A stretch of DNA of 64,000 nt, from NCBI GenBank assembly GCA_013298945.1, contig JAAFJR010000004.1:1-64000 (forward strand), given 5' to 3'. Made by a program: the position numbers and the translations under genes. The DNA is from Polaromonas sp. (GTDB taxonomy: Bacteria > Pseudomonadota > Gammaproteobacteria > Burkholderiales > Burkholderiaceae_C). Positions 1,709-62,480 of the stretch are shown in pieces. The stretch's first letter is position 1. Each line of letters opens with the position of its first letter. The notes beneath the pieces are model-generated. The model was not told the DNA's origin. It saw only the letters and a list, made by a program, of their open reading frames with translations, and made no database searches.

Positions 1709-1752
1709 GGCTATAGCCGGCGTATTTATTGCTTGAATAGCTATAAATTTTG
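1709..1752 (+). repeat. GCCGGC-type dispersed element, copy B (intergenic)
   Basis: Forward copy with the palindrome GGCTATAGCC joined to GGCGTATTTATTGC and then TGAATAGCTATAAATTTT. It sits 3' of the tadA fusion gene. A further small inverted repeat GCTAT...ATAGC at 1672-1688 may be an extra arm of the same element. Confidence 0.85.
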
Positions 1753-1794
1753 TAACAAAATAATCTAAAAAATGGTTAAACTTTATCAGCTAAA

Positions 1795-8182: not shown

Positions 8183-8228
8183 ATGATATTAATTTAATAG
8201 CTGCTCAGGCAATAAATATATGGTCTAC
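8183..8228 (-). repeat. GCCGGC-type dispersed element, copy D (intergenic)
   Basis: Reverse copy: GATATTAATTTAATAGC, then TGCTCAGGCAATAAATA. The GCCGGC end is mutated to ATATGG. It lies between two convergent genes. Confidence 0.75.
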
Positions 8229-8264
8229 AGACGATTTACGTCATGTATTAGCATATTTTAGTGC

Positions 8265-17033: not shown

Positions 17034-17582
17034 ATGAAATTTATCCGAACCGCTTTGCCTTATTTAGTCGCCATTTTTGGCATTGTTTTCAGTGCTTCCG
17101 CCATGGCGCAATACATGTGGTTAGACGCTTCGGGCCGTAAAGTCTTCAGCGACCAACCGCCGCCAGCCAATATTCCAGCCAAACGCGTTTTGCAGCAGCC
17201 AGGTAAGGCAGCGGCGGCTCAAACCACCGATGTCAGCGAAAAACCAAGTGCCGAATCAGGAGCAGAAGAAGCAAAATCTACCACTTCACCTAAAAATTCA
17301 ACAGCAACAGCAAAACCAGAAGCAAGCAAAGACAAAGATTTAGAAGCAGCTAAAAAGAAGATTGACGACGAAACTGCGGCCAAGAAAAAGGTTGAGCAAG
17401 AGAAAATTGACGCCGCAAAAGCAGACAACTGCAAACGTGCCAAACAAGCCAAAAGCCAGTTTGAAACTGGACGACCTATTGCCACTGCGAATGCAAAAGG
17501 TGAACGAATTATCATGGATGAAGCCTCCCGCATGGTTGAGACAAAACGACTAGAAGGCATCATTGCAGCAGACTGTAAATAA
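17034..17582 (+). CDS. DUF4124-domain exported protein
   Basis: 182 residues. A signal peptide (IRTALPYLVAIFGIVFSASAMAQ) is followed by the DUF4124 motif YMWLDASGRKVFSDQPPPANIPAKRVLQQPG. The rest is a highly charged Lys/Ala/Glu-rich helical region (about residues 70-135) that looks like coiled coil. Function of the family is unknown. The position between guaB and rnfH/ratA/smpB is one I recognise from other Burkholderiales. A copy of the dispersed element begins right after its stop codon. Confidence 0.85.
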   Translation: MKFIRTALPYLVAIFGIVFSASAMAQYMWLDASGRKVFSDQPPPANIPAKRVLQQPGKAAAAQTTDVSEKPSAESGAEEAKSTTSPKNSTATAKPEASKDKDLEAAKKKIDDETAAKKKVEQEKIDAAKADNCKRAKQAKSQFETGRPIATANAKGERIIMDEASRMVETKRLEGIIAADCK

Positions 17583-17584
17583 GC

Positions 17585-17626
17585 TCTAGCCAGCGTATTT
17601 ATTGCCTAAGCAGCTATTAAATTTGC
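17585..17626 (+). repeat. GCCGGC-type dispersed element, copy E (intergenic)
   Basis: Forward copy with CTAGCCAGCGTATTTATTGCC, one change in the palindrome, then TAAGCAGCTATTAAATTT. It starts within about three bases of the DUF4124 stop codon. Confidence 0.88.
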
Positions 17627-17645
17627 AGCATTTAACGATTGAAAA

Positions 17646-19068: not shown

Positions 19069-19117
19069 TGCTATAATTTTAATAGCTACTTAGACAGCAA
19101 ATACGCCGGCTATAGGC
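19069..19117 (-). repeat. GCCGGC-type dispersed element, copy F (intergenic)
   Basis: Reverse copy beginning GCTATAATTTTAATAGC, then TACTTAGACAGCAAATACGCC and GGCTATAGGCG. It starts eight bases after the smpB stop. Confidence 0.85.
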
Positions 19118-19122
19118 GTATT
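19101..19122 (+). terminator. Terminator-like hairpin formed by dispersed element F
   Basis: AATACGCC pairs with GGCGTATT around the loop GGCTATA and is followed by a short T-run. It sits between the convergent smpB and bactofilin genes, so the repeat appears to serve as their shared transcription end. The pairing is seen; the function is inferred. Confidence 0.5.
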
Positions 19123-19135
19123 TTGAATCTAAAAA

Positions 19136-21450: not shown

Positions 21451-22584
21451 TCAGACCAAATGTGCCAAAGGATGGGCCGCGTCTGGCCAGGGACTCACGA
21501 AAAACGGGGCAACCATGTCGTTTGTCACTTCGTTGATTTGGCTAGGATTCCAGCGCGGCGCATGGTCTTTGTCCACCGCCAAAGCACGAATGCCTTCAAC
21601 AGTCTCAGAGGCATTGCCAAATCTGCCTAAATGCGCGGTGTAAAAACAATGGCGCACCATACCGCGCTCCATTTGCAGGTTTTGAGCTAAATTAAGGTGT
21701 CTGCCTCGACGGATTTGCTCTAAAACCACATGCAGCATCAGCGGTGACCGGCTGCGTAAAGTCGCAACGGTTTGCAACTCCCAAGCTTGATTTGAGGCTT
21801 CTAGCGCAGCGATAATTTGGGAAACTGTAGCTAATGAAAAATAAGTATCAATTTTAGCATTATTTTCGGCTGTAGCCGGCGTATTTATTGCCTTTGCAGC
21901 TATACTATTAATAGCATTCTCAGTTACATTTTGTGATCCCAATGATTCCCAAAATGCAGCCAAAGCGTCTGAGCTGACTTTGATATCGGCTAAACCGTAG
22001 GCAATAGCTTCATCAGCTCCGATTTGCACACCCGTCAGCGCCAAATACTCGCCCACAAAACCTGGGCAGCGGCTCAGAAAATAGCCTCCTCCCACATCTG
22101 GAAACAGCCCAATGCCCGTCTCAGGCATAGCTATTTTGGTGCGCTCGGTAACAATTCTGTGGCTGGCGCCTTGTGAAATACCCATGCCACCGCCAAAAAC
22201 CAAACCATCCATGAAGGCGATGTAGGGTTTTGGGTAGTTGGCAATCAGGTGGTTGAGCGCATATTCCTCGGTAAAAAAGTCTTCCAGCTCAGGGTTGCCG
22301 ATTTGGATGGCTTGGTGGAAGAAGCGAATGTCGCCACCGGCGCTAAAATTACCAAATGGTACGTCTAAGCCTTCCGCAGTAGGCTTGCTCATTCCGCGAA
22401 TCGCGACTTGTTTGACAGTGGCATCAACTTTCCAAGCCAGCAATTGCGCCATCAATGCACGAATCATAGGCAAACTGAGCGCATTCAGGGCTTTAGGGCG
22501 GTTGAGGCTGATAAATCCTGTGTAACCGAGAACCTCACATCGAATTTCTGGAATTTGCACCTTACTTGGCATCTTGTTTGTCAT
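21451..22584 (-). CDS. 3-hydroxyisobutyryl-CoA hydrolase family protein (enoyl-CoA hydratase fold)
   Basis: 377-residue crotonase-fold enzyme of the HIBYL-CoA hydrolase type, which acts in valine breakdown. Family segments are GYTGFISLNRPKALNALSLPMIRAL, FSAGGDIRFFHQA, YIAFMDGLVFGGGMGIS and IAMPETGIGLFPDVGGGYFLSRCPG. It overlaps the RNase gene upstream by ATGA. About residues 223-240 (AINSIAAKAINTPATAENN) are encoded by a copy of the dispersed element, probably a surface insertion that makes the protein longer than usual. No other valine-catabolism gene is adjacent, so the exact acyl-CoA is uncertain. Confidence 0.87.
   Translation of the reverse strand: MTNKMPSKVQIPEIRCEVLGYTGFISLNRPKALNALSLPMIRALMAQLLAWKVDATVKQVAIRGMSKPTAEGLDVPFGNFSAGGDIRFFHQAIQIGNPELEDFFTEEYALNHLIANYPKPYIAFMDGLVFGGGMGISQGASHRIVTERTKIAMPETGIGLFPDVGGGYFLSRCPGFVGEYLALTGVQIGADEAIAYGLADIKVSSDALAAFWESLGSQNVTENAINSIAAKAINTPATAENNAKIDTYFSLATVSQIIAALEASNQAWELQTVATLRSRSPLMLHVVLEQIRRGRHLNLAQNLQMERGMVRHCFYTAHLGRFGNASETVEGIRALAVDKDHAPRWNPSQINEVTNDMVAPFFVSPWPDAAHPLAHLV
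21868..21915 (+). repeat. GCCGGC-type dispersed element, copy G (genic)
   Basis: Near-perfect forward copy (GGCTGTAGCCGGCGTATTT, ATTGCC, then GCAGCTATACTATTAATAGC) inside the HIBYL-CoA hydrolase gene, read backwards by the gene as A-I-N-T-P-A-T. The codon that would be TAG in this frame for TAA-type copies is AAG here. Confidence 0.9.
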
Positions 22585-26912: not shown

Positions 26913-27920
26913 TTACTTACTTAAAATCTGCTCAATATCTTGTGGACTTAGCAATCTTCCTGGCACCAATTCATCTGCAATCACTTGTGCAGTACCGAGT
27001 AAAACCTCAGGGTTCATACCAAACACCGCAACTGGCACACCCTCTTTGATCGACAACCAATTTCCTCGCCTACGTACGCCGTTCAAAAACCGTGCTGCAT
27101 TTTCAGCATCCAATGTGACGTGCGCATGACCTTCTAAAAGAGACTCAACAGGCAACAAACAAGCTAATCTCTCATCTTCATTCATTGTCTCCAGCGCCTC
27201 TAAAGTCACACACTGGCTAACATCAAAACTACCGGTTCCAATTCTGCGCAAACTACTCAAATGCGCCCCGCAGCCCAACTTCTCACCAATATCCTCACCC
27301 AAAGTACGTATGTACGTTCCTTTGCTGCATTTCACTATCATTTTTATAGCATTAAAAGCAATTAATTCAACGGCTATATCATTAATCGTTACATTTCTGG
27401 CAACTCTCTCTACGTCTATCCCTGCTCTTGCGTATTCATACAAGGCTTTTCCATCTTTCTTCAGCGCACTGTGCATGGGCGGAATTTGCTCTATATCACC
27501 TCTGAATTCTTGCAAAACAGATTGCAGCAATTCATCGCTCACATTCACATCACGTCGCTCTAACACATCGCCTTCCGCATCCGCCGTTGTCGTTTTAACG
27601 CCCAACGCGGCAATGGCTTCATACCGCTTATCCGCATCCAAATGCAATTGACTAAACTTAGTAGCCGCCCCAAAACAAAGCGGCAGCAAACCAGTTGCAA
27701 GCGGATCCAATGTTCCCGTGTGCCCAGCTTTTTCAGCTCTCAATAGCCACTTGGCTTTTTGTAAAGCATCATTGCTGGACATTCCTTTCGGCTTGTCTAG
27801 TAGCAAGACACCATGAACAGGTCTTCTCTTGATTCGTTCGCCCGTTCGTTCACTTCTTTTTTTCTTCTGTAATACAACCAAATCCTCAGTGTTTAATTCC
27901 AAGTTACCCTCTGCACTCAC
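26913..27920 (-). CDS. truB: tRNA pseudouridine(55) synthase
   Basis: Makes pseudouridine 55 in the T-loop of tRNAs. 335 residues from a GTG start one base after the rbfA stop. The catalytic Asp lies in [20 protein letters not shown] and [29 protein letters not shown] are family motifs. The N-terminus has about 30 extra basic residues. The stretch [14 protein letters not shown] (about residues 181-194), just before [10 protein letters not shown], aligns without gaps to the dispersed element at about 74 percent nucleotide identity by hand, but the protein keeps normal length there. Confidence 0.95.
27341..27378 (-). repeat. Possible degenerate GCCGGC-type element, copy H (genic)
   Basis: About 28 of 38 bases match the element consensus in register (TATAGCC, GTTGAATTAATTGC, GCTATAAAAA on the minus strand). 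The codon equivalent to the usual TAA/TGA is TTT. Weak because both sequences are AT-rich. Confidence 0.4.
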
Positions 27921-33747: not shown

Positions 33748-35367
33748 TTAAATGCCTGCATTCACCAATAACGACGTGTATTCATGCTGTGGAGACGCCA
33801 TGATTTGCTGGACTGAGCCAGATTCGACAATATCACCTTCCCGCATTACCAGCACAGAATGCGCCATCGCGCGGATCACATCCACATCGTGGGTAATCAG
33901 CAAATAACTCAATCCGCGCTCACGTTGCAACCGCTGCAAAAGCTGCAAAACTTGCTTTTGAATGGTCACATCCAAGGCACTGGTTGGCTCGTCCAACACC
34001 AACAACTGAGGCTCGACAATCAACGCCCGCGCTATAGCTAAACGCTGGCGTTGCCCACCTGAGAACTCATGTGGATAGCGGTTTAGCAGACCTGCAAACT
34101 GAGTCTCCGACAACCCGACCTCTGCTAAAGCCGCCAAAACCTTGGTTTGCCGCTGTTCGGCAGTCAAGTCAGGTGCATGTACCAGCAAGCCCTCACCCAC
34201 CAACTCACCCACAGTCAAGCGTGGGGAAAGTGATGAAAACGGGTCTTGAAACACCACTTGCACTTGTTTTCTCAAGGCTTTATCGGCTTTTTTGCTAGCG
34301 CCCCAGCTTTGCCCAGATACCTTCAAATCACCCGTAAAGGGCAGCAAACCCAGCGCCGCAAGCGCCAAAGTTGATTTACCAGAGCCTGATTCACCAATCA
34401 CGCCCAAAGTTTGACCTGCTGGTATGTCAAAACTGGCGCCTTTGACTGCTACAAACTCGCTTTTTTTGAACCAACCTTTGAAACCTGGAATCGGTGTTGG
34501 GTAGCTGACGCGTAGATTTTTTGCCAACATGCTGTCATTCCCGAGAATACGGGAATCCATGGCTGCATTCGTAACTTCCACAACATCCCGCACCGGCTTG
34601 CTGTCCATCAACTTGCGGGTGTAGGCATGCTGCGGGTTCGAAAACACAGCTTCTACGGCGCCCTGCTCCACAATGCTCCCGTTTTCCATGACGATGATGC
34701 GGTCGGCAAACTTGCGTACCAGGTTCAAATCATGGGTAATCAGCAGCACCGCCATGCCGTTTTGCTTTTGCAAGTCAGCTAGTAGCTCCAAAATTTGCAG
34801 CCGCAAGCTCACATCCAGCGCGGTTGTTGGCTCGTCTGCTAGCAATAATTTGGGCTGGCAAGCCAATGCCATCGCAATCATGGCACGCTGCCGCTGACCG
34901 CCGCTGAGCTGATGCGGGTACGATTTGGCGCAGCGTTCAGGATCAGCAATGCCTGTAGAAGCTATTATTTTTATAGCTTCTGAGGCTAGTAATAAGCCGG
35001 CTAAAGGCATTTTATTCTCTAAAACCTCAGTTATTTGATCTCCCACCGTGAATAACGGGTTCAAAGCCGTCATCGGCTCTTGAAAAATCATGGCGATGTC
35101 TTGGCCGCGAATGCCGCGCAGTTGCTGTTCAGGAATACTTAGTAAATCAAGCGTATCTTTTTGCCCAAATGCAGCTCTGCCCCGCAGCTCGGCATTCATC
35201 ACCAAACGCAGCAAACTCAGGGCAGTGACGGTTTTTCCTGAGCCCGATTCGCCAACCAAGGCGACGCGTTCACCGGCTTTGATGCTGAAATTAATGCCGT
35301 GAACGACTGCTTTGCCACCAAAGGAAACTGTCAAATCCTTGACATCTAAAAGGTTCGGCAGATTCAT
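33748..35367 (-). CDS. yejF: Peptide ABC transporter, double ATP-binding protein (YejF-like)
   Basis: 539 residues with two fused ATPase domains. Domain 1: Walker A GESGSGKTV, signature LSGGQRQRAMIAMAL, Walker B LLLADEPTTALDV. Domain 2: GESGSGKSTLALAAL, FSGGQRQRLAIARAL, LLVLDEPTSALDV. Powers the YejB/YejE permease for oligopeptides. Its start overlaps the yejE stop by ATGA. Two unrelated repeats lie inside: a dispersed GCCGGC element in domain 1 (about residues 122-136, MPLAGLLLASEAIKIIAS) and a dRS3-like repeat in the interdomain linker (about residues 269-278, MDSRILGNDSM). The frame is intact and all ATPase motifs are present, so the protein is probably functional. Confidence 0.93.
   Translation of the reverse strand: MNLPNLLDVKDLTVSFGGKAVVHGINFSIKAGERVALVGESGSGKTVTALSLLRLVMNAELRGRAAFGQKDTLDLLSIPEQQLRGIRGQDIAMIFQEPMTALNPLFTVGDQITEVLENKMPLAGLLLASEAIKIIASTGIADPERCAKSYPHQLSGGQRQRAMIAMALACQPKLLLADEPTTALDVSLRLQILELLADLQKQNGMAVLLITHDLNLVRKFADRIIVMENGSIVEQGAVEAVFSNPQHAYTRKLMDSKPVRDVVEVTNAAMDSRILGNDSMLAKNLRVSYPTPIPGFKGWFKKSEFVAVKGASFDIPAGQTLGVIGESGSGKSTLALAALGLLPFTGDLKVSGQSWGASKKADKALRKQVQVVFQDPFSSLSPRLTVGELVGEGLLVHAPDLTAEQRQTKVLAALAEVGLSETQFAGLLNRYPHEFSGGQRQRLAIARALIVEPQLLVLDEPTSALDVTIQKQVLQLLQRLQRERGLSYLLITHDVDVIRAMAHSVLVMREGDIVESGSVQQIMASPQHEYTSLLVNAGI
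34534..34560. repeat. dRS3-like inverted repeat (genic, yejF linker)
   Basis: GTCATTCCCGAGAATACGGG followed by AATCCAT: the ATTCCC...GGGAAT ends match the dRS3-type repeat known from Neisseria. In frame in yejF, encoding MDSRILGND. Confidence 0.75.
34959..35002 (-). repeat. GCCGGC-type dispersed element, copy I (genic)
   Basis: On the minus strand TTAGCCGGCTTATTACTAGCC, then TCAGAAGCTATAAAAATAATAGC. Coding frame as in tupA; the TGA of intergenic copies is TCA here, keeping yejF open. Confidence 0.8.
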
Positions 35368-39988: not shown

Positions 39989-40777
39989 ATGGGCTTTTTA
40001 ACTGGCAAGAAACTACTCATCACCGGCGTCTTGAGCAACCGCTCCATCGCCTACGGCATCGCCAAAGCATGCCACCGCGAAGGCGCTGAGTTGGCCTTCA
40101 GCTACGTGGGCGAGCGTTTCAAAGACCGTATCACCGGTTTTGCGGCCGAATTTGACTCTAAGTTGATTTTTGACTGCGACGTTGGCAGCGACGAATCCAT
40201 CGCCCGATTAGCATCCGATTTGTCCGCCGTCTGGCCACAGTTCGACGGCTTTGTACACAGCATCGGTTTCGCCCCCAAAGAAGCCCTTGAAGGTAATTTC
40301 CTAGACGGTCTAACCCGCGAAAATTACCGCATCGCCCATGACATCAGCGCCTACAGCTTCCCCGCCATGGCCAAAGCCCTGCTGCCGCACCTGCGTGAAA
40401 AATCATCGGTTTTAACCCTCTCCTACCTAGGCGCTGAACGCGCCGTACCCAACTACAACACCATGGGCTTGGCCAAAGCGTCACTGGAAGCGTCTGTGCG
40501 CTACCTCGCCGAAGCCATCGGTCCAAAGGGCATGCGCGCCAACGGCATCAGCGCCGGCCCCATCAAAACCCTAGCCGCCAGTGGTATCAAAGACTTCGGC
40601 AAACTCCTAGGCACAGTATCCGGCGCATCCCCCATCCGCCGTAACGTGACCATAGACGAAGTAGGCAACGCCGCTGCCTTCTTGCTCAGCGACTTGTCCA
40701 GCGGCATCACGTCTGAGATCATGTACGTCGATGGCGGCTACAGCCAAGGCGTTGGGGTGACTGCGGATCAGATTTAA
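39989..40777 (+). CDS. fabI: Enoyl-[acyl-carrier-protein] reductase (NADH)
   Basis: Last reductive step of each fatty-acid elongation cycle; target of triclosan-type inhibitors. 262 residues from the ATG at 39989, matching the standard FabI N-terminus [27 protein letters not shown]. The divergent SDR active site is seen with Tyr and Lys in [21 protein letters not shown], and [13 protein letters not shown] follows. The start was moved inward because upstream in-frame sequence covers the divergent lipoprotein gene. A dispersed element begins directly after the stop. Confidence 0.96.
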
Positions 40778-40797
40778 GGCTATTTTAGAGCTAAAAA

Positions 40798-40845
40798 TGG
40801 CTGTAGCCGGCGTATTTATTGCCTGAGCAGCTATTAAAAAAATAG
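40798..40845 (+). repeat. GCCGGC-type dispersed element, copy J (intergenic)
   Basis: Forward copy GGCTGTAGCCGGCGTATTT, ATTGCC, TGAGCAGCTATTAAAAAAATAG, filling the fabI-thioredoxin gap. Flanking GGCTATTTTAGAGC at 40778-40791 may be its outer arm. It ends at the GTG start of the thioredoxin gene. Confidence 0.9.
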
Positions 40846-41195
40846 TGATTTTGAAATCAAACGTATCCCCCTCTCTCACCGTAGCCTGCCTGTGCGCCGA
40901 CTGGTGTGGTGCATGCCGAGAGTACAAGCCGCTGTTTGATGCTTTGGCGCTTAAATTCCCACAGGTGCAGTTTAAGTGGATCGACGTGGAAGACGAAGCG
41001 GATTTAATTGACCCGATTGAGGTAGAAAATTTCCCGACGATTTTGATTACTTCAGAGGGAAAACCGCTGTTTTTTGGGACGGTTTTGCCGCACATTGAAC
41101 AGCTGGCGCGGCTGATTCAGGAGAAGTCTGCCGTCGGGGTTAAACCTATACAGCACGATGCTGCGCTGGTGCTATTAGCCGCCAAACTTATTTGA
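40845..41195 (+). CDS. Thioredoxin-family protein
   Basis: 116 residues with active-site Trp-Cys-Gly-Ala-Cys (CADWCGACREYKPLFDALA) and the cis-proline region VENFPTILI. No signal peptide, so cytoplasmic. The GTG start is embedded in the end of dispersed-element copy J, and no clear Shine-Dalgarno is visible, so translation may depend on sequence supplied by the repeat or on coupling with fabI. Probably a thiol-disulfide reductase of unknown partner. Confidence 0.87.
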   Translation: MILKSNVSPSLTVACLCADWCGACREYKPLFDALALKFPQVQFKWIDVEDEADLIDPIEVENFPTILITSEGKPLFFGTVLPHIEQLARLIQEKSAVGVKPIQHDAALVLLAAKLI

Positions 41196-41206
41196 GGCTT
41201 TTTTTG

Positions 41207-41254
41207 CTTGTAGCCGGCGTATTTATTGCCTAAGTAGCTATGAAGATAATAGCA
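41207..41254 (+). repeat. GCCGGC-type dispersed element, copy K (intergenic)
   Basis: Forward copy TTGTAGCCGGCGTATTTATT, GCC, TAAGTAGCTATGAAGATAATAGC, starting about ten bases after the thioredoxin stop. Confidence 0.9.
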
Positions 41255-41850: not shown

Positions 41851-44800
41851 TCACCCAACCCACTTCCTCGCATTCCGCCAAATCTCCATCCACGGACTTT
41901 GAGCACTCTTATCAAGCGACGTCCAACTCATTTGAATGTTGCGGAAGACGCGCTCGGGATGCGGCATCATGGCGGTGAAGCGACCATCGACTGTGGTGAC
42001 TGCGGTTAGGCCGTCTGGGCTGCCGTTGGGGTTGAAGGGGTAGATTTCAGTCGCCGCGCCGAAATTATCGGTAAAGCGCATGGCTTGGATGACGGCTTGG
42101 GCATTGCCACGGCCTGCTTTGGCGGGGTCGAAGTTGGCATAGCCTTCACCGTGGGCGACGGCGATGGGCAGGCGCGAGCCGGCCATGCCGGCTAGGAACA
42201 GGCTGGGGGACTCCAAAATCTCGACCATGCTCAAACGTGCCTCAAAGCGCTCGCTCTGGTTGGTGGTGAAACGTGGCCAATGCTCGGCACCAGGGATGAT
42301 TTGCGCCAATTCGGCAAACATTTGGCAGCCGTTGCAAACGCCCAGACCAAAGGTGTCTGGCCGCGCAAAGAAGGCTTGGAACTGGTCGGACAGCACGGGG
42401 TTGAAGGTGATAGACCGCGCCCAGCCAATGCCAGCGCCCAGCGTGTCGCCGTAGCTGAAACCGCCACAGGCGATGATGCCGACAAAGTCCTTCAAGTTCG
42501 CCCTGCCGGTTTGCAGGTCGGTCATGTGGACGTCGTAAGCTTCAAAACCTGCCTCGGTGAAGCAGTAGGCCATTTCCACATGCGAGTTGACGCCCTGCTC
42601 GCGCAAGATGGCGACTTTGGGGCGGGCGAGCATCAATTGAGAGGTGCCAACCCCGTCATTCCCGCGTAGGCGGGAATCCATGCCAGCGCCACCGTGGATT
42701 CCCGCCTGCGCGGGAATGACAGAGTGTGTATAAATAGCGCTTAAATTAGCATTCAAACTGACATGCAAACCCGGGTCTGCTGCCACGCCAGCGGCGGCGT
42801 GCTCGCTGTCGGCACAATCTGGGTTATCGCGCAGTTTGGCGATTTTCCAGCTGATGCTGTCCCACACCTGGTGCAAGTCTGCCAGCGGTGCGCTGAACAC
42901 GGCTTTGGCGTCGCGCCAGACTTGGAGTTGCCCTTTGCCTGCATCAATCGTCGAAGATTCGGGACGCGTTTTGCCGATAAAGTGACTGAACTTACTTAGC
43001 CCGTGCGAACGCAGGGCTTCCATAACGGCGTTACGCTCAGACGTGCGGACTTGAATCACAGCGCCCAGCTCTTCGTTGAACAGCGCCTTTAATGTCAACT
43101 CGTCGCGGCGTGCAGAAACTTGGTTCGCCCAGTTTTTGCTGTCGCCAGTTTCCATTCGACTGTCGGATATTCCATCGCCTTCTGTGACCAGCATGTCGAC
43201 ATTGATAGCCACGCCGACGTGCCCCGCGAACGCCATCTCGGCCACACAGGCCAGCAGGCCGCCATCGCTCTTGTCGTGGTAGGCCAAAATTTGCTGTTTA
43301 GCGCGTAACTCGTTGATGGCGTTGACTAAATTGATCAAGTCTTTGACGTCGTCCAAGTCCGGCACGCGGTCGCCAAACTGGTCAATCGTCTGCGCCAAGA
43401 TGCTGCCCGCCATGCGGTTTTGACCTTTGCCGAGGTCGATCAAAATCAACGTTGTATCGGCTTCAGTGGCATCCAATTGCGGGGTTAATGTGCCGCGTAC
43501 ATCTGCCAGTGTTGCGAAGGCGGTGACGATCAAACTGACGGGTGAAGTCACCTTCTTTGCTGCGCCATCATCCTTCCAAGTGGTTCGCATAGATAACGAA
43601 TCTTTACCCACAGGAATCGAAATACCCAGTGCCGGGCACAGCTCCATGCCCACGGCTTTGACGGTTTCGTACAGTGCGGCGTCTTCGCCCGCTTCGCCGC
43701 ACGCAGCCATCCAGTTGGCGGACAGCTTGACGCGGGACAGCTCAAACGGTGCTGCCAGCAAATTGGTAATCGCCTCGGCGACCGCCATGCGGCCCGATGC
43801 GGGCGCGTCCAGCGCGGCCAGCGGTGTGCGCTCGCCCATGCTCATGGCTTCGCCGGCAAAGCCAAGGTAGTCGGCCATGGTCACGGCGCAATCGGCCACC
43901 GGCACTTGCCAGGGGCCGACCATGGGGTCGCGGTGGGTCATGCCGCCCACAGTACGATCGCCAATGGTGATCAAAAAGCGTTTGCTCGCCACAGTGGGGT
44001 GCGCCAAAACGTCAATGACGGCTTTTTGCAGGTTTATGCCAGTCAAATTGAGGGCGGGAATCTGGCGTTTAACGGTTTTGACGTCGCGAGTCATCTTCGG
44101 CGGTTTGCCGAGCAAGACTTCCATCGGCATATTGACTGGGGATTCTTGTCCTTCGTCGGCAAGGATGAGTTGATTAACCTCAGTCGTGACACCCACGACC
44201 GAGAACGGACAGCGCTCCCGCTCACAAATCGCTTTGAACTGTTCCAAAGACTCAGCCGCAATCGCCATCACATAGCGTTCTTGGCTCTCATTGCACCAAA
44301 TTTCTTTCGGTGCGAGGCCAGATTCCTCTAGCGGTACGGCGCGCAGGTCAAACCTCGCGCCACGGCCTGCATCATTGACCAACTCGGGGAATGCGTTGGA
44401 CAAACCGCCCGCACCCACGTCGTGAATCGCCAAAATCGGATTATTCTTACCTGCTTGCCAGCACTGGTTGATCACCTCTTGCGCACGGCGTTCGATTTCA
44501 GGGTTGCCGCGTTGCACGGAGTCAAAATCCAGCGACGTAGCGTTCGCACCCGTCGCCATCGAGCTGGCAGCACTGCCGCCCATGCCAATGCGCATGCCGG
44601 GGCCGCCGAGTTGGATCAGCAAGCTGCCAGCGGGGAAGAGAATTTTGTGGGTCAACTCGCTGTCAATCGTGCCCAAACCGCCGGCAATCATGATGGGCTT
44701 GTGGTAGCCGCGCTGGATTGTGTCGTTGCTGCTTTTAACAGATTGCTCGTATTCTCGAAAGTAGCCCAAGATGTTCGGACGACCAAACTCGTTATTGAAA

Positions 44801-46062
44801 GCCGCGCCGCCCAATGGGCCTTCAATCATGATTTGCAGCGGGCTGGCGATGTGCTCCGGCTTTCCGTAACTTGTTGATTTCTTTGAGTTATTAGTGGAAG
44901 TTTCAGCATCAAAATTCATTTTCGAAACCGTAAAACCCGTCAAACCCGCTTTGGGTTTAGAGCCACGCCCGGTTGCGCCTTCATCCCGAATCTCGCCGCC
45001 TGCACCCGTAGCAGCTCCCGCGAATGGGGAGATTGCCGTCGGGTGGTTGTGGGTTTCCACCTTCATCAACACATGCTGCAATTTGCTATTCTTTTTATAG
45101 CTACTCAGGCAATCAATACGCCGGCTAGATTCGTTTTTAGCCTCTGAAACAGCATTTTTGGATGCTGAATGGTCAAAATTGGCAAAAAATCGCTCAACGA
45201 CACTGCCTTCCATCACAGAGGAATTGTCAGAATACGCCACCACCATGTGCTGCGGGTTCAGCTGATGGGTGTTGCGGATCATGCCAAACAGGCTTTTGTC
45301 CATCGCCACGCCATCGATGATGAAGTTGGCGTTGAAGATTTTGTGACGGCAATGTTCGGAATTAGCCTGCGCAAACATCATCAGCTCCACGTCGCTGGGG
45401 TTGCGCTTCAAACCGGTGAAAGCGTTGACCAGGTAGTCCATTTCGTCGTCTGTCAAGGCGAGACCGAACTCGGTATTGGCAGCTTCCAAAGCTGCGCGTC
45501 CACCAGCCAACACATCCACATGAGCCATGGGTGCTGCGTTTACTGTAACAAATAGATTCAAACTATCTTTACGGTCAAACAGCACAGACTCGGTCATGCG
45601 GTCGTGCAACAGCGCGGCAACGGCTTGTAATTGATCGGTTGAGAGACTGGCTTTTCCTAAGAGTGGATTCTTAAGTGTCAGGCTGTATTCCGTGATTCGC
45701 TCAATCCGTTTCACTCCCAAGCCGCAGTTATGGGCAATATCGCTGGCTTTCGACGCCCATGGGGAAACTGTGCCGATGCGCGGGGCGACGATGATTTGCA
45801 GGATATTGGCGGTTTTGTCTAGCTGAACCGCTGGTTCGCCATAGGTCAACAACGACTGTAACCGAGCTTGCAGTGCTGAATCTGGCTGCCCTTCACTCGC
45901 TGCCAAGTGCACAAAACGGGCCGAAACATGGGTGATTTTGTCACTCACAGCCTGTAAGCGGGGCAGCAGTTGGTTGATGCGAAACGGGCTGAGAGCGCTG
46001 CCGCCCTCGATGGTGCTGATATGCAAGTTCAAAATGTGAGCCTGGTGTTGGGAGGAAAGCAA
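41851..46062 (-). CDS. purL: Phosphoribosylformylglycinamidine synthase (large PurL)
   Basis: Fourth step of purine synthesis, FGAR to FGAM with glutamine and ATP. 1403 residues, about 60 to 100 longer than usual for the single-chain enzyme. An N-terminal domain, FGAM synthase core ([50 protein letters not shown]) and C-terminal glutaminase (Cys in [13 protein letters not shown]; His/Glu in MPHPERVFR) are all present. Much of the extra length is repeat-derived: about residues 311-327 ([17 protein letters not shown]) from a GCCGGC element and about 1114-1136 ([10 protein letters not shown], then DSRLRGND) from a pair of dRS3-like repeats in the linker before the glutaminase domain. Further extra residues around the first site ([19 protein letters not shown]) look like linker. 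Frame intact. Confidence 0.96.
42655..42720. repeat. Inverted pair of dRS3-like repeats (genic, purL linker)
   Basis: GTCATTCCCGCGTAGGCGGG plus AATCCAT at 42655-42681, and GTGGATTCCCGCCTGCGCGG plus GAATGAC at 42694-42720, face each other over 12 bases. The 66-bp unit equals 22 codons and stays in frame in purL. Confidence 0.9.
45083..45129 (-). repeat. GCCGGC-type dispersed element, copy L (genic)
   Basis: Minus strand: CTAGCCGGCGTATTGATTGCC, TGAGTAGCTATAAAAAGAATAGC, inside purL. The coding frame gives [10 protein letters not shown], which is free of stops even in unmodified copies. Confidence 0.9.
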
Positions 46063-50689: not shown

Positions 50690-52126
50690 TTATTTAAGTT
50701 GATACGCTGGGTCTAGCGTTAGTGCTCGCAGATGAGCTACACCGACCGTACCATTTGCTATAGTTTGTGTAGCATTTGAGGCAAGTAATACCTCAGCTAA
50801 TGTCGTTTTTGATGCATCATTCGGCACACCATCAGCTCGCACACCATACGGTCTTAGGAATACATCGGCATCTAAAGTCATCGTTGATTCAGCCTTACCG
50901 ACTTTAAAAATTGGCATTCTGCCCAAAGCAGCATTCATAGCTGGGTTCATAGATGAATTTGCAAGAACTTCTATTGATCTGAACAACTGCTGGGTGAAGT
51001 TTTTGCGCTCTAAAAGCGTGGTCGCATTGATCCAATCTGTATAGCCCGGCCAACCTTTCACGTTAGGTGGCATCAACAAGTTTTGCCCCAACTGCGCGGT
51101 TTTAAGCGCAAAGGGCAGCGCATCGCTGTAGCCAAAGCCAAACTGCCGCACCGAGCCAACCACCAAATCTACAGGCGACTTGATCAAGCTGCCACGGTTA
51201 CTTTCCGCCCAAAACGCGTCCGTGGTCAATAAATCAGCCAATGCGGTGTCTATGGCATAACCGCTCTGTGCAAAGCGCTTCCCAATACGTTTGACCTCCA
51301 TCGTATCTGGCACGGGCGAAACAAATTCTTTCCACAACTTGCCAACGATGAACTCGCCACACGCTGCCTGCGCTAGCATGATGTTCAGCACATCATCGCC
51401 ATTGAAATTACCTACTTTGCCTAGCACCGTTTTAGAAAAAATATCATGTGCTGGGGCGCGGAACTTGAAACTGAAATCATCTCTGTCCACGCTCCAGCCT
51501 GTGAAGGCACGGGCGACTTCCTTGATGTCTTGCTCGTTATAACCACCGCCTTGGGTGGCTTCGCCCAAGGTGAACAACTCCATCACCTCACGCGCAAAGT
51601 TTTCATTCGGCGCATCGCGACGGCTGTTAGCCGCATCGAGGTAAACCAGCATGGCTGGGTCTTTGGCGATACCGTGCAGCAAACTGGCAAAACTGCCCAA
51701 AGCATGCGTGCGAAATAATTGGTGCTGCCGCCACATCGCTTGCGAGCGCACCACTTTTTGCTGCGAGGTTGCAAAATGGTTATGCCAAAACAGCACCATC
51801 CGCTCGGCCAAAGGTACTGGCGTCTCTAACATTTCACGCAACCACCACGCTTTAATCTCCACGCCTTCGCCAATTTGCGCTCGCCGCTGCTCTTGCCGCT
51901 CATCCACTGTTTTTAATTGTGCTTGTGGAACGGGTGGCGGGTTGTTAACAAACGCTGGCGCTGGGTATTTGGGTTTAGTCGTGCGTGCTGCGGAAATGAT
52001 CTCGCTAACAGCTTGCTGGGCGCTTTTACCCACCAGTTTGTCAACCTCAGCATGCGTGGGCGCAAAGCCTGTGCGAATCAGCAAGTGGCGTACCTGCTGG
52101 GGCGTCATTTGAGTTGGAGTCAGCAT
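50690..52126 (-). CDS. DUF1800 protein
   Basis: 478 residues. Family segments are VRHLLIRTGFAPTHAEVDKLVG, WWLREMLETPVPLAERMVLFWHNHFATS, NENFAREVMELFTLGEATQGGGYNEQDIKEVARAFTGW and LMPPNVKGWPGYTDWINATTLLERKNF. No obvious signal peptide. DUF1800 and DUF1501 genes are commonly paired; the biochemical role is unknown. 61 bases upstream of the DUF1501 start on the same strand. Confidence 0.9.
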   Translation of the reverse strand: MLTPTQMTPQQVRHLLIRTGFAPTHAEVDKLVGKSAQQAVSEIISAARTTKPKYPAPAFVNNPPPVPQAQLKTVDERQEQRRAQIGEGVEIKAWWLREMLETPVPLAERMVLFWHNHFATSQQKVVRSQAMWRQHQLFRTHALGSFASLLHGIAKDPAMLVYLDAANSRRDAPNENFAREVMELFTLGEATQGGGYNEQDIKEVARAFTGWSVDRDDFSFKFRAPAHDIFSKTVLGKVGNFNGDDVLNIMLAQAACGEFIVGKLWKEFVSPVPDTMEVKRIGKRFAQSGYAIDTALADLLTTDAFWAESNRGSLIKSPVDLVVGSVRQFGFGYSDALPFALKTAQLGQNLLMPPNVKGWPGYTDWINATTLLERKNFTQQLFRSIEVLANSSMNPAMNAALGRMPIFKVGKAESTMTLDADVFLRPYGVRADGVPNDASKTTLAEVLLASNATQTIANGTVGVAHLRALTLDPAYQLK

Positions 52127-52240: not shown

Positions 52241-53005
52241 TCAGCCGGAATGCTTGCGGTTTTGCAACACCGCTTCCGCCAGTGCGAAGTCTTCGGGATA
52301 GGTTACCTTGAAGTTTTGAGCACTGCCGCGCACCAATTTCGGCGCATGGCCAAGCCGCTCCATCGCGCTAGATTCGTCGGTAATCAAGGCATTGGCAGGG
52401 TCAGACAAATCCCCGGCTGCGGCCAAAGCGTCAATAAGTGCACCAATTCGGAACATTTGCGGGGTTTGCGCCAACCATTTGTCGCTGCGTCCCAAAGTTG
52501 CAGCAACGCGTCCTGCGCTTTCAGATTTCAAGGTATCCGGCAGCGGCAAAGCCAGCAAGCCGCCCACAGCGCCATCGTCATTCAGGCAGGCGTCTATCAA
52601 AGCGTTAATTTGCTCTGGCGTGATCAAGCAACGCGCCGCATCATGTACCAAAACCCAGTCGGTAGCAGCTACACCTTGCCCTAACAGAGCCTTTAGACCA
52701 TTAAAAACGGTTGTAGCCCTCGTATTTCCTGCCTGAAGCGCTATTGAAAATATAGTATTTTTATTAACTTTAAGCAATTCAGGTAATTGATCATCTTCTT
52801 TTGCAATCACCACCAAGCCGCCCGCAAAACGTTTGACCTGTTCAAAGGCTGCCAAGGTGTGCATCACCATAGCTTTGCCTGCAATCACGCGATATTGCTT
52901 AGGAATGTCTGTTTGCGCCCGTGAACCATTCCCGCCACAAGGAATAAGCACCCAAAGTTTGGGGTTCTTTTCAAGGTTGTTTTCAGCAGGTTGCGCGTTT
53001 GTCAT
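52241..53005 (-). CDS. ispD: 2-C-methyl-D-erythritol 4-phosphate cytidylyltransferase
   Basis: Third step of the MEP isoprenoid pathway. 254 residues from the ATG at 53005; upstream in-frame codons would overlap the mfd promoter. CTP-binding loop LIPCGGNGSRAQTDIPKQYRVIAGKAMVMHTL, the substrate segment AGNTRATTVFNGLKAL, DWVLVHDAARCLI and DESSAMERLG are present. The segment NTIFSIALQAGNTRATT (about residues 83-100) is encoded by dispersed-element copy M. It keeps Gly and Arg where other IspD proteins have the conserved G-x-x-R-x-x-S/T-V. ispF usually follows ispD but is absent here. Divergent from mfd. Confidence 0.94.
   Translation of the reverse strand: MTNAQPAENNLEKNPKLWVLIPCGGNGSRAQTDIPKQYRVIAGKAMVMHTLAAFEQVKRFAGGLVVIAKEDDQLPELLKVNKNTIFSIALQAGNTRATTVFNGLKALLGQGVAATDWVLVHDAARCLITPEQINALIDACLNDDGAVGGLLALPLPDTLKSESAGRVAATLGRSDKWLAQTPQMFRIGALIDALAAAGDLSDPANALITDESSAMERLGHAPKLVRGSAQNFKVTYPEDFALAEAVLQNRKHSG
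52709..52755 (+). repeat. GCCGGC-type dispersed element, copy M (genic)
   Basis: About 80 percent match to the forward consensus: GGTTGTAGCCCTCGTATTTC, CTGCCTGAAGCGCTATTG, AAAATATAG. It encodes, backwards, Q-A-G-N-T-R-A-T-T of IspD. The changes from typical A-I-N-T-P-A-T fall on conserved IspD positions. Confidence 0.8.
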
Positions 53006-53070
53006 GGAGGCTATTCTAAAATGCAATGCTGTACAAACTGACATTGATTTAGAGACCGAAACGAATATTG

Positions 53071-56000
53071 ATGGATTTACCCAAGCTTTCCCTAGGCAAA
53101 CGCTACACCCTGCCCCGCTCCATTGGGTCGTCTGATGCGCTGTTGCTTGCTAAATTAGCCCAGCGCGACAAAGCTGCCAAACGCCTGACGGCCATCGTCA
53201 CGTCCGACGCCACCGATGCTCAGCGTCTGATGCATGAAATCGCCTTTTTCGCCCCTGAAGTGCGTTTGACGCTGTTCCCCGACTGGGAAACCCTGCCCTA
53301 TGACTCGTTTTCACCGCACCAAGATTTAATAAGCGAGCGTTTGGCAACGCTTTGGCGCATCAGCCAACGTGACAAAGACAGCGGCGCTGATGTCGTCATC
53401 GTACCCGCCACCACGGCTTTGTACCGCCTTGCACCTCCCAGTTTCTTAGCTGGCTACACCTTTGCCTTTAAAACCAAGCAAAAGCTGGACGAGGCCAAAT
53501 TCAAAGCGCAGTTGACCTTGGCGGGCTACAACCACGTCAGCCAAGTGGTTAGCCCTGGCGAATATGCCGTGCGCGGCGGCCTGATTGATTTGTTCCCCAT
53601 GGGCTCGTTGGTACCGTATCGCGTCGATTTGTTTGACGACGAAATCGACAGCATCCGTACCTTTGACCCCGATAGCCAGCGCAGTCTTTACCCAGTACCT
53701 GAGGTTCGCCTGCTGCCAGGACGCGAGTTTCCTATGGACAACGAGGCGCGGACTAAGTTTCGAAGCCGTTGGCGCGAATTAGTCGAAGGCGACCCAACCA
53801 AAAGCCGCGTATACAAAGATATTGGCAATGGCGTGGCAACGGCAGGTATTGAGTATTATTTGCCGCTGTTTTTTGAGGAAACAGCTACGGTTTTTGATTA
53901 CATAGCCGGTAATGAAAAATCCCAAATAGACAAATCCCAATCAGACAAAGCTCATTCAGATGCCACCGTTGTTCTGCATGGCGATTTAGAGCCCGCTTTC
54001 CAGCGTTTTTGGCAAGACACCAAGGATAGGTATCGACTCGTTCAAGGTGACCCAGACCGCCCTGCGCTGCCGCCTGATACATTATTTTTAAGTGCTGAGC
54101 AGTTTTACGCCAGAGCGAATGACTTTGCGCAGTTGGCAATCAAAGCAGCGCCCGCTAATGCTTCAAGTGAGGCCTCTCATGACGATGCTTTTGTCGAATT
54201 TGCCCCATTGCCCGACTTGTCCGTCGCTCGCGGCACGGACGAGCCACTGGCAAAGCTGAAAAACCACCTGAAAAGCACGTTGCAGCGTGTGTTGATTTTG
54301 GCGGAATCTGATGGGCGGCGTGAAAGCTTGCTCGATTTTCTGCGCGCCAGCAACTTGTCCGTCCCCGCTTTTGACAGCCTAGTAGACTTTCAAACCAGTG
54401 TTGAAAAAATCGGTATTGCTACTTCGGGCTTGAACGTCGGTTTCAGTTGGCTGTCCAACAACATCGGTCAAGGCATTGATTTAATTACTGAAACCGAACT
54501 GTTCGCCGCCGGTGCCGTCACCCGCCGACGTAAAAAGCAAGAGCAAGTCAGTGATGTTGAAGCGCTGATCAAGGACTTGTCCGAGCTCAACGTCGGCGAC
54601 CCCGTGGTGCACAGCGCCCACGGCATTGGGCGATACATGGGTTTGATTAACCTGGATTTGGGCTTGAGCAAGCAAGCCGATGGCTCTATGGCCAATGTGT
54701 TGTCATCCACCGTGCAAGAGTTTTTGCATCTTGAATATGCCGACAAAGCCACGCTGTATGTGCCCGTCAGCCAGTTGCACCACATTAGCCGCTACACCGG
54801 CGTGAGTGCCGACGAAGCGCCGCTGCACCGGCTGGGCTCGCCCCAGTGGGAAAAAGCCAAGCGCCGAGCCGCTGAGCAAATTCGTGATTCTGCCGCTGAA
54901 CTATTGAACATCTACGCCCGCCGTGCCGCGCGTGAAGGCCACGCCTTCCGCTACTCGCCACAAGACTACGAAACCTTTGCCAACGACTTTGGCTTTGAAG
55001 AAACCGCCGACCAGCGCGCTGCCATCCACTGCGTGATTCAAGACATGATCAGCCCACGCCCTATGGACAGGCTGGTGTGTGGCGATGTGGGCTTTGGCAA
55101 AACCGAAGTTGCGCTGCGTGCCGCCTTCATCGCCATCACCGGCGGCAAACAGGTCGCGATTCTTGCGCCGACCACGCTTTTAGCCGAGCAGCATTACCAA
55201 ACCTTGGTGGACAGGTTTGCCAAATGGCCGGTCAAAGTAGCGGAGATGAGCCGATTCCGCTCGGCCAAAGAAATCACTGCCGCTATCAAAGGCATAGCTG
55301 ACGGAACCATCGACATCGTGGTGGGAACGCATAAATTACTCAGCAAAGACGTGAAGTTTGAGCGCTTGGGTCTGCTCATCATCGACGAAGAGCATCGATT
55401 CGGCGTGCGCCATAAAGAAGCGATGAAAGCCATGCGAGCTGAGATTGACGTGCTGACGTTGACGGCGACACCGATTCCCCGAACGCTGGGCATGGCGCTT
55501 GAGGGCCTGCGCGACCTTAGCGTCATCGCCACCGCGCCGCAGCGCCGTTTGGCGATCAAAACCTTTGTGCGAACAGAGAGTAATGGCGTGATTCGTGAAG
55601 CCGTGCTGCGCGAATTGAAGCGCGGTGGGCAGGTTTACTTTTTGCACAACGAAGTGGACACCATCCAAAACCGCAAAGAGCGGCTGGAAGAAATCTTGCC
55701 CGAAGCCCGCATCGCCATCGCCCACGGCCAAATGCCCGAGCGCGAGCTAGAGCGGGTGATGAAAGACTTTGTGGCCCAGCGCTACAACCTGCTGCTGTGC
55801 TCCACCATCATTGAAACTGGTATTGATGTGCCCACGGCGAACACGATTGTGATGGCACGTGCCGACAAGTTTGGCCTAGCCCAATTGCATCAACTCCGTG
55901 GTCGCGTCGGCCGCAGTCACCACCAAGCCTATGCGTATTTGATGGTGCCTGATATTGAGGGTTTGACCAAGCAAGCCGGTCAGCGCCTAGAAGCAATACA

Positions 56001-56697
56001 GCAGATGGAAGAACTGGGCTCTGGCTTTTACCTCGCCATGCACGACTTGGAGATTCGCGGGACTGGTGAAGTGCTGGGCGAAAACCAGTCCGGCAACATG
56101 ATGGAAATCGGTTTCCAGCTCTACAACGAGATGCTGGGCGAGGCTGTGCGCTGTCTCAAAGCGGGTATCGAGCCTGATTTGATGGCACCAACCAATGTGA
56201 CCACAGAAATCAACCTACATTCTCCAGCCTTGCTGCCCGATGATTATTGTGGCGATGTACATCTGCGTCTGAGTTTCTACAAAAAGCTTGCTACGGCCAA
56301 AACAACTGAGCAAATTGACAGCCTGTTAGAAGAAATTGTCGATAGATTTGGCAAACTCCCGCCGCAGGCGCAAACGCTCCTAGACGTTCACCGCCTGCGC
56401 GTGATGGCTAAGCCCTACGGCGTGGTCAAGGTCGATGCGGCCCCGAGTGTCATCAACATCACGTTCAAGCCCAATCCGCCTATCGACCCGATGGCCATCA
56501 TCCACCTCATCCAAAAAAACCGCCACATCAAGCTGACGGGCAACGACAAACTGCGCATAGAACGCGATTTACCCGAAGCCAAAGACCGTGCTTTGATGGT
56601 GCGGGATGTGCTGCGAAGTTTGGGGCAGCCGAAAACAGAAGTAAAGGCGGAGGCAAAAGCAGAGGCGAACACTGGCAAACCAGTAACTCTGCGATAA
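53071..56697 (+). CDS. mfd: Transcription-repair coupling factor Mfd
   Basis: 1208 residues from the ATG at 53071. Releases RNA polymerase stalled at lesions and recruits UvrA. UvrB-like N-terminal domains (LFPDWETLPYDSFSPHQDLISERLATL), RNA-polymerase-interacting CarD-like domain (LNVGDPVVHSAHGIGRYMGL), then RecG-like translocase: Walker A DVGFGKTEVALRAAF, DEEHRFGV, TATPIPRTL and QLRGRVGRSHHQAYAYL. The C-terminal TRCF domain and a short Lys/Glu/Ala tail follow. A slightly unusual DUF-free insert near residues 285-300 (EKSQIDKSQSDKAHSDA) is repetitive and hydrophilic. Confidence 0.97.
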   Translation: MDLPKLSLGKRYTLPRSIGSSDALLLAKLAQRDKAAKRLTAIVTSDATDAQRLMHEIAFFAPEVRLTLFPDWETLPYDSFSPHQDLISERLATLWRISQRDKDSGADVVIVPATTALYRLAPPSFLAGYTFAFKTKQKLDEAKFKAQLTLAGYNHVSQVVSPGEYAVRGGLIDLFPMGSLVPYRVDLFDDEIDSIRTFDPDSQRSLYPVPEVRLLPGREFPMDNEARTKFRSRWRELVEGDPTKSRVYKDIGNGVATAGIEYYLPLFFEETATVFDYIAGNEKSQIDKSQSDKAHSDATVVLHGDLEPAFQRFWQDTKDRYRLVQGDPDRPALPPDTLFLSAEQFYARANDFAQLAIKAAPANASSEASHDDAFVEFAPLPDLSVARGTDEPLAKLKNHLKSTLQRVLILAESDGRRESLLDFLRASNLSVPAFDSLVDFQTSVEKIGIATSGLNVGFSWLSNNIGQGIDLITETELFAAGAVTRRRKKQEQVSDVEALIKDLSELNVGDPVVHSAHGIGRYMGLINLDLGLSKQADGSMANVLSSTVQEFLHLEYADKATLYVPVSQLHHISRYTGVSADEAPLHRLGSPQWEKAKRRAAEQIRDSAAELLNIYARRAAREGHAFRYSPQDYETFANDFGFEETADQRAAIHCVIQDMISPRPMDRLVCGDVGFGKTEVALRAAFIAITGGKQVAILAPTTLLAEQHYQTLVDRFAKWPVKVAEMSRFRSAKEITAAIKGIADGTIDIVVGTHKLLSKDVKFERLGLLIIDEEHRFGVRHKEAMKAMRAEIDVLTLTATPIPRTLGMALEGLRDLSVIATAPQRRLAIKTFVRTESNGVIREAVLRELKRGGQVYFLHNEVDTIQNRKERLEEILPEARIAIAHGQMPERELERVMKDFVAQRYNLLLCSTIIETGIDVPTANTIVMARADKFGLAQLHQLRGRVGRSHHQAYAYLMVPDIEGLTKQAGQRLEAIQQMEELGSGFYLAMHDLEIRGTGEVLGENQSGNMMEIGFQLYNEMLGEAVRCLKAGIEPDLMAPTNVTTEINLHSPALLPDDYCGDVHLRLSFYKKLATAKTTEQIDSLLEEIVDRFGKLPPQAQTLLDVHRLRVMAKPYGVVKVDAAPSVINITFKPNPPIDPMAIIHLIQKNRHIKLTGNDKLRIERDLPEAKDRALMVRDVLRSLGQPKTEVKAEAKAEANTGKPVTLR

Positions 56698-56722
56698 ACC
56701 CTTAAATTCCTCCTAAAATAAG

Positions 56723-56770
56723 CCTCTAGCCAGTATATTTATTGCCTAAGTTGCTATTAAATTTATAGTA
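56723..56770 (+). repeat. GCCGGC-type dispersed element, copy N (intergenic)
   Basis: Forward copy CTCTAGCCAGTATATTTATT, GCC, TAAGTTGCTATTAAATTTATAG between mfd and serB. Confidence 0.87.
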
Positions 56771-59740: not shown

Positions 59741-59767
59741 GTGGATTCCCGCATTCGCGGGAACGAC
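59741..59767. repeat. dRS3-like inverted repeat (intergenic)
   Basis: GTGGATTCCCGCATTCGCGG plus GAACGAC: stem ATTCCCGC/GCGGGAA. It sits between the convergent aminotransferase and PhoD genes and could act as their shared transcript end, although no T-run follows. Confidence 0.8.
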
Positions 59768-59771
59768 AGCC

Positions 59772-62436: not shown

Positions 62437-62480
62437 GCTATAAATTTCATAGCTCCATATGCAAAAAAAATCTGGCTGCC
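62437..62480 (-). repeat. Possible degenerate GCCGGC-type element, copy O (intergenic)
   Basis: GCTATAAATTTCATAGC followed by TGCAAAAAAAATC and TGGCTGCC resembles the reverse element with a one-base deletion. It lies between convergent genes, downstream of the hydrolase stop. Confidence 0.45.

Follow-up and report, generated by a model that had tools for sequence, protein, structure and literature searches.

Rickettsia palindromic elements are inserts that are read in frame in housekeeping genes, lengthen the protein and fold as palindromes. REP/BIME elements, which occur with RAYT transposases, often number more than 100 short copies per genome and are extragenic by name. DNA uptake sequences (DUS) occur in dialects congruent with the core-genome tree, and their intragenic copies lie at permissive places, according to the excerpts of PMC3630211 consulted here. 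In the excerpted text of PMC2397512, many DUS are argued to have arisen by recombination and not by point mutation, and DUS are described as under-represented in acquired DNA. The BRE repeat measures about 90 bp, averages 69% G+C in Bordetella and reaches no more than 29 copies per genome (excerpts of PMC3110155).

The locus analysed in the present study is the ispD gene of a 64,000-nucleotide stretch of DNA (the window), in which a copy of a dispersed repeat, a word of about 50 bases, overlaps a conserved motif of the encoded enzyme. No description of this repeat was found in the open-access literature searched, BRE as excerpted from PMC3110155 being the nearest, and the literature searched likewise yielded no paper on uptake sequences in Comamonadaceae.

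Results

The ispD gene and its repeat copy

The features of the gene are as follows.
52241-53005, minus strand: ispD, encoding 2-C-methyl-D-erythritol 4-phosphate cytidylyltransferase (ORF 52241-53044; likely start, the ATG at 53005)
52695-52758, minus strand: element copy inside ispD, over the extent of the 64-base profile (nhmmer match 52755-52696)
52727-52729, minus strand: GGA codon (Gly); Ile in most dispersed copies (consensus ATA), from the sequence and a 113-copy comparison
52718-52720, minus strand: AGG codon (Arg); Pro in most dispersed copies (consensus CCG), from the same comparison

The start at 53005 was inferred from relative L120. The protein matched TIGR00453 over its whole length with 198.2 bits (curated cut-off, 181.3), and 29 distinct solved sequences matched it at E ≤ 1e-5. 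Its copy-bearing segment reads I-F-S-I-A-L-Q-A-G-N-T-R-A-T-T-V; in E. coli IspD, the same stretch takes part in binding the cytosine of CTP.

A profile built from 11 other copies in the window, with ispD excluded, recovered the ispD copy at E = 1e-9 and 34.3 bits (rank 12 of the 17 window matches at E ≤ 0.01), and thus the repeat copy seen within this gene by the original prediction is real. Comparison of positions 52600-52860 with their own genome by BLAST gave 17 further places, every one overlapping the copy segment (best E, 9e-9; identities of 75-86% over 42-71 bases). A profile of 113 dispersed copies in which ispD was masked has 46 positions with at least 60% conservation; the ispD copy agreed at 36 of them, which bears out the hand estimate of about 80% identity over 45 bp. 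The element had been placed at 52709-52755, where a copy is indeed present, though a somewhat longer one, the 64-base profile spanning 52695-52758.

Dispersed copies encoding A-I-N-T-P-A-T, as noticed earlier, were found in ORFs 21454-22584 and 40610-41095. At the Gly position, the 113 dispersed copies of the window's genome encode Ile 78 times and Gly once, and at the Arg position, Pro 61 times and Arg once; none encodes both, and the contrast originally drawn at the motif, Ile to Gly and Pro to Arg, is therefore genuine. All of the 112 ispD proteins compared have the Arg, and 109 have the Gly. That both codons are kept off the repeat consensus by selection on the protein is supported.

The repeat family in the window and in related genomes

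In the 464 kb examined of the window's genome (G000), 114 copies were detected at E ≤ 1e-3, with the consensus tTGCTATaaatTTaATAGCTncTtAGGCAATAAATACGCCGGCTAnAGnC (62 bits; about 37% G+C in the composed consensus). In 400 kb each, G071 contained 51 copies with its own spelling, tGCGCAnanTCcAcGnGGGCTAgaGgC, and G015 contained 166 copies spelled nGCGCTTGncngnCAAGCGC; the reversed-sequence control gave 0 in all three genomes. G031, which together with G060 and G061 represents other members of the window's genus, had 47 copies in 260 kb in a sub-dialect, mostly ATAGCAnnnTAGGC. Exact-pattern counts, which depend on the dialect (2 in G031 by pattern against the 47 by profile), were excluded from the correlation. 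Each lineage evidently has its own genome-wide spelling, or dialect, of a word of about 50 bases, whose information content is 45-62 bits over 64 columns and whose conserved blocks are spread across about 50 bases.

The density was one copy per 4.1, 7.8 and 2.4 kb in the samples of G000, G071 and G015, and by extrapolation G000 would hold roughly 750 copies in all, about one per 4 kb, in coding and non-coding DNA. Copies within ORFs of at least 200 aa made up 47 of 113, 28 of 50 and 91 of 165, respectively, against fractions of 0.77, 0.89 and 0.90 for random positions. The variance-to-mean ratio of copy counts per 20 kb was 0.84, 0.86 and 1.81 in the three genomes, that is, near Poisson in two. 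Replichore polarity in G015 was rejected, as copies lie on both strands under even sampling. In this otherwise copy-rich genome, one 20-kb segment, L248 (G015:C1:2160001-2180000), has 0 copies and a GC skew of -0.070 and is possibly an acquired island.

Besides the one in ispD, the following copies were located in the window.
45086-45147, plus strand: copy within purL (minus-strand gene, 41854-46062); other genera have orthologous copies
34962-35024, plus strand: copy within the gene of an ABC-transporter ATPase (33751-35367, minus strand); other genera have orthologous copies
21853-21914, minus strand: copy inside an enoyl-CoA hydratase/isomerase-family (ECH_2), CoA hydrolase gene (21454-22584); orthologous copies in other genera
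13668-13722, plus strand: weaker copy inside the GMP-synthase gene (13020-14666, minus strand); 56/64 bases equal to G060
27335-27379, plus strand: weaker copy within a minus-strand gene of the TruB family (26916-27920); matched in G060 and, weakly, in G061
50758-50814, plus strand: weaker copy within a minus-strand DUF1800 gene (50690-52126); matched in both G060 and G061
40783-40845, minus strand: top-scoring copy of the window, in ORF 40610-41095 without a Pfam match; G060 counterpart with 39/64 bases
56708-56768, minus strand: copy directly downstream of the large ORF 53068-56697; counterparts in G060, G061 and G031
41191-41252, minus strand: intergenic copy, between ORFs; no counterpart detected in G060 or G061
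19071-19129, plus strand: copy outside ORFs of at least 100 aa; counterpart in G060
17570-17628, minus strand: copy at an ORF end; G060 counterpart with 40/64 bases
8187-8247, plus strand: copy in a stretch non-syntenic with G060, from profile search and synteny
4048-4107, plus strand: copy lying at the 5' end of a gene for a solute-binding protein, or before it; matched in G060
1694-1754, minus strand: copy in a stretch about 140 bases shorter and copy-less in G060, from profile search and synteny
612-648, minus strand: weaker copy in ORF 176-826 without a Pfam match; counterpart in G060
62438-62477, plus strand: weakest match (E 0.005); no synteny in the G060, G061 and G031 stretches examined

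Window positions 34534-34566, 42655-42687, 42694-42722 and 59741-59769 belong to a further inverted repeat family, rich in G+C and unrelated to the word (GTCATTCCCG...GGGAATCCA), and another dispersed-looking inverted repeat (TTCGCCCTGAGCCTGTCGAAGGG...) lies at about 9571-9667 of the G060 locus L311 and is absent at the same place of the window.

The arms GCTAT and ATAGC are conserved among the copies. Arm covariation was not detected in the copies of G000 and G071, and a slight excess appeared in two arm pairs of G015. Folding against shuffles gave z values of +0.68 for the window consensus, -1.26 for the Rhodoferax-type and -2.62 for the G015-type; the window consensus folds no better than shuffles, and the G015-type consensus does. 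Rfam returned nothing in the window at gathering thresholds. An RNA or hairpin function, having no support for the window dialect from Rfam, folding or covariation, was rejected.

Searches with a single spelling, which have low sensitivity, matched the Rhodoferax-type word in 6 of 72,556 plasmid records and the window word in 0 of 50,697 phage records and in 2 viral contigs. The 31.9-kb Rhodoferax antarcticus plasmid NZ_CP019241.1 has 3 places similar to the Rhodoferax-type word, and so the word is not confined to chromosomes.

ispD copies across relatives

The 112 Comamonadaceae ispDs compared are biased to close relatives, consisting of a 60-genome family sample, the genus members and the best 80 loci of one scan; the training set of the G000 profile included the window's ECH_2, ABC and PurL copies and left ispD out. 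All 4 window-genus genomes examined carry the ispD copy, and in this biased set 29 of the 112 genes (4 from the genus and 25 from outside) scored above 10 bits at exactly the ispD site. Across the same coding sequences, 65,952 other sequence windows remained at or below -20.4 bits with the G000 profile and -15.6 bits with the G071 profile. One background sequence window reached 52.2 bits with the G015 profile, a strong copy elsewhere in some, possibly extended, ispD ORF.

The 4 genus copies scored 50.0-55.0 bits with the G000 profile against 17.0-22.5 bits with that of G071, the Rhodoferax dialect. Outside the genus, 24 of the 25 copies above 10 bits fitted the G071 or G015 profile best (the exception is L061), some of these best-profile calls being narrow, as for L085 and L051. 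In the GC-rich relatives, third-position G+C dips sharply at the copy (0.16 against 0.71 for the rest of the gene in L094, and 0.11 against 0.67 in L085), as tabulated for the 109 of 112 ispDs that were usable after L039, L052 and L104 dropped out. When codons were resampled from the rest of the gene under a constant protein sequence, 0 of 2000 draws attained the observed score for any one of the 29 ispDs, and the result was again 0 of 2000 for the 4 genus copies with codons of the AT-rich patch. Several non-genus ispDs were unexceptional under the AT-rich codon pool (L093, 920/2000; L044, 538/2000). Since these weaker relatives are reachable by AT-rich codons, the AT-rich codons themselves are the signal in them, and the G+C dip is the better evidence.

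Most members of the family read C-G-G-[A/S]-T-R-A in IspD, and the window genus reads [Q/K]-A-G-N-T-R-[A/S]. Translated in the ispD frame, the 113 copies of the window dialect give Ala 92, Asn 88 and Thr 86 times at the corresponding places, with a stop 44 times and Gln 28 times at the Gln place. In the window genus, the ispD dialect reaches the protein level; A-G in place of G-G also occurs in L016, L069 and L103, three relatives without a strong copy. Locus L111, from a record titled Akkermansia muciniphila, groups by its ispD with Limnohabitans-type sequences and is probably mislabelled or from a mixed bin.

No gap was found within the ispD copy in the alignment of relatives with and without it, and the segment does not appear to be a recent insertion in the window's lineage. 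The original prediction had left two origins open, a lineage-specific insertion or conversion repaired later by selection, or chance convergence of an existing motif. Selection on the Gly and Arg codons survived from the former. The lineage-specific event itself did not, as the site is common to the genus members and many other Comamonadaceae, the alignment is gapless, and the relatives' ispD copies are spelled like the repeat of their own genome. Chance convergence was not upheld either, the segment being a genuine repeat copy. Near-identical ispD nucleotides, which had been proposed as a sign against the element when seen in relatives that lack it, were not found: the peptides of L042 and L094 are near-identical and their nucleotides differ.

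Element-rich and element-free genomes

A sequence-only model of 36 copies (training genomes G000, G071 and G015) was run on 29 genomes, with at most 150 candidates scored per genome. Twenty genomes proved element-rich (91 to at least 150 matches) and nine had 0 to 5 matches. In this set, which was picked partly by ispD copy state, 17 of the 20 element-rich genomes had an ispD copy above 10 bits, as against none of the 9 element-free ones (Fisher p 2e-5); the element-rich exceptions are G072 and G076, without the copy, and G035, with a weak one (7.9 bits). For purL, tested in 18 of the 29 genomes, all 13 element-rich genomes had the copy, among them G072 and G076, and none of the 5 element-free ones did. 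Phylogenetic control is thin, as the independent pairs, 2 on well-supported branches and 5 on all branches, are too few for a significant sign test. Outside the 29, G002 had 19 exact-pattern matches, and its ispD, L019, scored below zero.

The element-free genomes include G066 and G075, two metagenome assemblies titled Rhodoferax. Their ispDs, L042 and L043, sit with those of element-rich Rhodoferax in an 11-row group of the ispD tree (support 94, inner order unresolved) and keep A-S-F-L-I-A-[A/P]-C-G-G-S-T-R-A-[A/G]-S-V-F-N-G-L with codons rich in G+C. From this, the pattern at the DNA level seems dispensable for the enzyme and maintained by something genome-wide. ComEC was rejected as a discriminating gene because its presence in 27 of the 29 genomes, including all 9 element-free ones and leaving two element-rich ones without a match, does not track the word.

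Orthologous copies in other genes

In ECH_2, ABC and PurL, all 11 genus copies fitted the G000 profile best, those of G000 itself being part of its training set and those of G060, G061 and G031 lying outside it; the 14 orthologous copies from outside the genus fitted the G071 or G015 profile best, L209 being nearly tied. In G035 the orthologous ABC site lacks a copy, and the best-scoring place of the gene is non-orthologous. In L203, the G060 ortholog of the window's ECH_2 gene (21454-22584), the match contains one TAG.

Counterparts were found in G060 for 13 of 15 syntenic window copies, leaving aside an apparent match to window place 8214 that is non-syntenic. Of the 11 copies mapped in G061, 7 had a counterpart, in one case a weak one, and an eighth is doubtful; in G031 the figure was 4 of 7. 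At variable positions, the agreement between orthologous copies of G000 and G060 is 0.60 over 7 coding pairs and 0.50 over 6 other pairs, against 0.34 for random copies, with single pairs below the random level (ABC, 0.22; window place 17600, 0.17). Averaged over the pairs, copies thus retain the identity of their site, with the dialect positions following the genome.

Outside the genus, the copy-less purL (G066, G075) and ABC (G035) genes have the same length as those of copy-bearing relatives, and the purL products of G077 and G083 are a few residues shorter. In the window genus, indels adjoin the copies (ABC, +4 residues in G060 and G061; ECH_2, +4 in G000; a longer loop in PurL), so that length is not neutral everywhere. 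Window place 1727 differs from G060 by about 140 bases, which is not one element, and at place 41224 the alignment of the window with G060 is poor.

Discussion

With a probability of roughly 0.57, we read the repeat as a dialect-forming word of about 50 bases that is upheld by a genome-wide process, mostly in place, and that is most like DNA uptake sequences. A trans-acting factor would recognise the word, and a genome-wide pressure, by selection or molecular drive, would create and retune copies mostly where they stand and not by insertion. Protein selection would set limits on the word within genes, and this would be why the ispD copy deviates from the dialect in its codons for Gly and Arg. 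The pressure may be of the uptake-sequence type, with word-bearing homologous DNA preferentially taken up or recombined; this is the most likely form of the pressure, but also the least supported step. Since DUS often arise by recombination in the excerpted account of PMC2397512, the change at a given site could also reflect recombination with homologous DNA.

A miniature element of the MITE, REP or RPE kind, mobile now or in the past, inserted into ispD and other genes in a common ancestor and now homogenised among its dispersed copies by gene conversion into dialects, would account for the high information content at hundreds of copies, for the conserved GCTAT/ATAGC arms, and for intragenic copies such as Rickettsia palindromic elements have; the window copies at 1727 and 41224 without a G060 counterpart and the small indels beside the ABC, ECH_2 and PurL copies in the window genus point the same way. 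Such an origin sits poorly, however, with the gapless ispD alignment, with copy-less PurL and ABC genes that outside the genus are no shorter, and with site-specific bases that persist between orthologs on average. The arms do not covary in G000 and G071, the window consensus folds like its shuffles, the difference at 1727 is not element-sized, and 41224 aligned poorly; we regard this explanation as unlikely. Still less likely, by a small step, is a binding site for a chromosome-organising or DNA-processing protein, selected copy by copy, with dialects following the changes of the protein. It would suit a window dialect that conserves primary sequence and not structure, copies on both strands without replichore polarity in G015, near-Poisson counts in two of three genomes, and the genome-wide absence of the word from some lineages. 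Yet 45-62 bits at hundreds of sites is much to ask of independent selection per site, and similar words stand on a few plasmids, the R. antarcticus plasmid with its 3 places among them.

Two further explanations are far less probable. The ispD segment might itself be the source of the family: by eye, Rhodoferax-type copies read A-C-A-x-x-T-R/G-A in the ispD frame, near the A-C-G-G-x-T-R-A of IspD. We give this very little credence, as G072 and G076 are element-rich without an ispD copy, and as the 113 dispersed G000 copies include none with the Gly and the Arg codon together and 53 with a stop in the ispD frame. Least probable of all is a likeness due to chance and codon usage, in which a patch of AT-rich or rare codons for a conserved peptide happens to look like the repeat. 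The G, R and V of the segment are conserved in IspD anyway, the patch is AT-rich, and AT-rich codon choice can attain the weaker copies outside the genus; but it never did so for the 4 genus copies in 2000 resamplings, a result that contradicts this explanation together with the match to the dialect of each lineage and the like behaviour of three other genes, and the copy tracks genome-wide presence.

Returning to the reading as a word upheld genome-wide, a bolder version can be offered more tentatively: the repeat would be an undescribed self-DNA word of about 50 bp in Comamonadaceae, read by a recogniser that evolves with the lineage and serves uptake, recombination or self/non-self sorting, and its drive would recode active sites, accompanying the change from C-G-G-S-T-R to Q-A-G-N-T-R in the IspD of the window genus.

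The locus offers a natural test of how far a genome-wide pressure at the DNA level can push an active site, since the nucleotides, together with some residues in the window genus, follow the dialect while the Gly and Arg hold out. The element-free Rhodoferax among element-rich relatives should make the maintaining factor findable through comparison of gene content. Should the word prove to be an uptake signal, the recognition of self DNA would be extended to a large family of environmental bacteria, and to a word much longer than those known.

Comparison with known systems

Like Rickettsia palindromic elements, the word is read in frame within housekeeping genes; unlike them, it leaves ispD gapless at the copy, though the indels beside the ABC, ECH_2 and PurL copies of the window genus leave some doubt at those genes, and its window dialect has no supported fold. 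From REP elements with RAYT transposases it differs in that many copies are intragenic, as the counts within ORFs of at least 200 aa show. With BRE, dispersed in Bordetella and Comamonadaceae, it shares the occurrence of some copies wholly within coding sequences, as far as the excerpts of PMC3110155 describe that repeat, but the word has about 50 bp and about 37% G+C and is far more numerous; the two are set apart by length, composition and number.

The short core of about 10-12 bases that marks DUS and the uptake signal sequences (USS) has no equivalent in the word, whose conserved blocks span some 50 bases. Compared with the 10-base DUS in the excerpts of PMC2397512, the word is about five times longer and carries 45-62 bits. 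Because of this greater length, and because ComEC does not track it, the word is not filed as a DNA uptake sequence. The likeness to the DUS and USS of Neisseriaceae and Pasteurellaceae, as these appear in the excerpted sources, lies in very many copies, commonly intragenic, in lineage dialects and in positional conservation, and also in coding copies that are many, yet fewer than random placement gives. We therefore hold, with moderate confidence, that the word may work in the manner of a DNA uptake sequence system.
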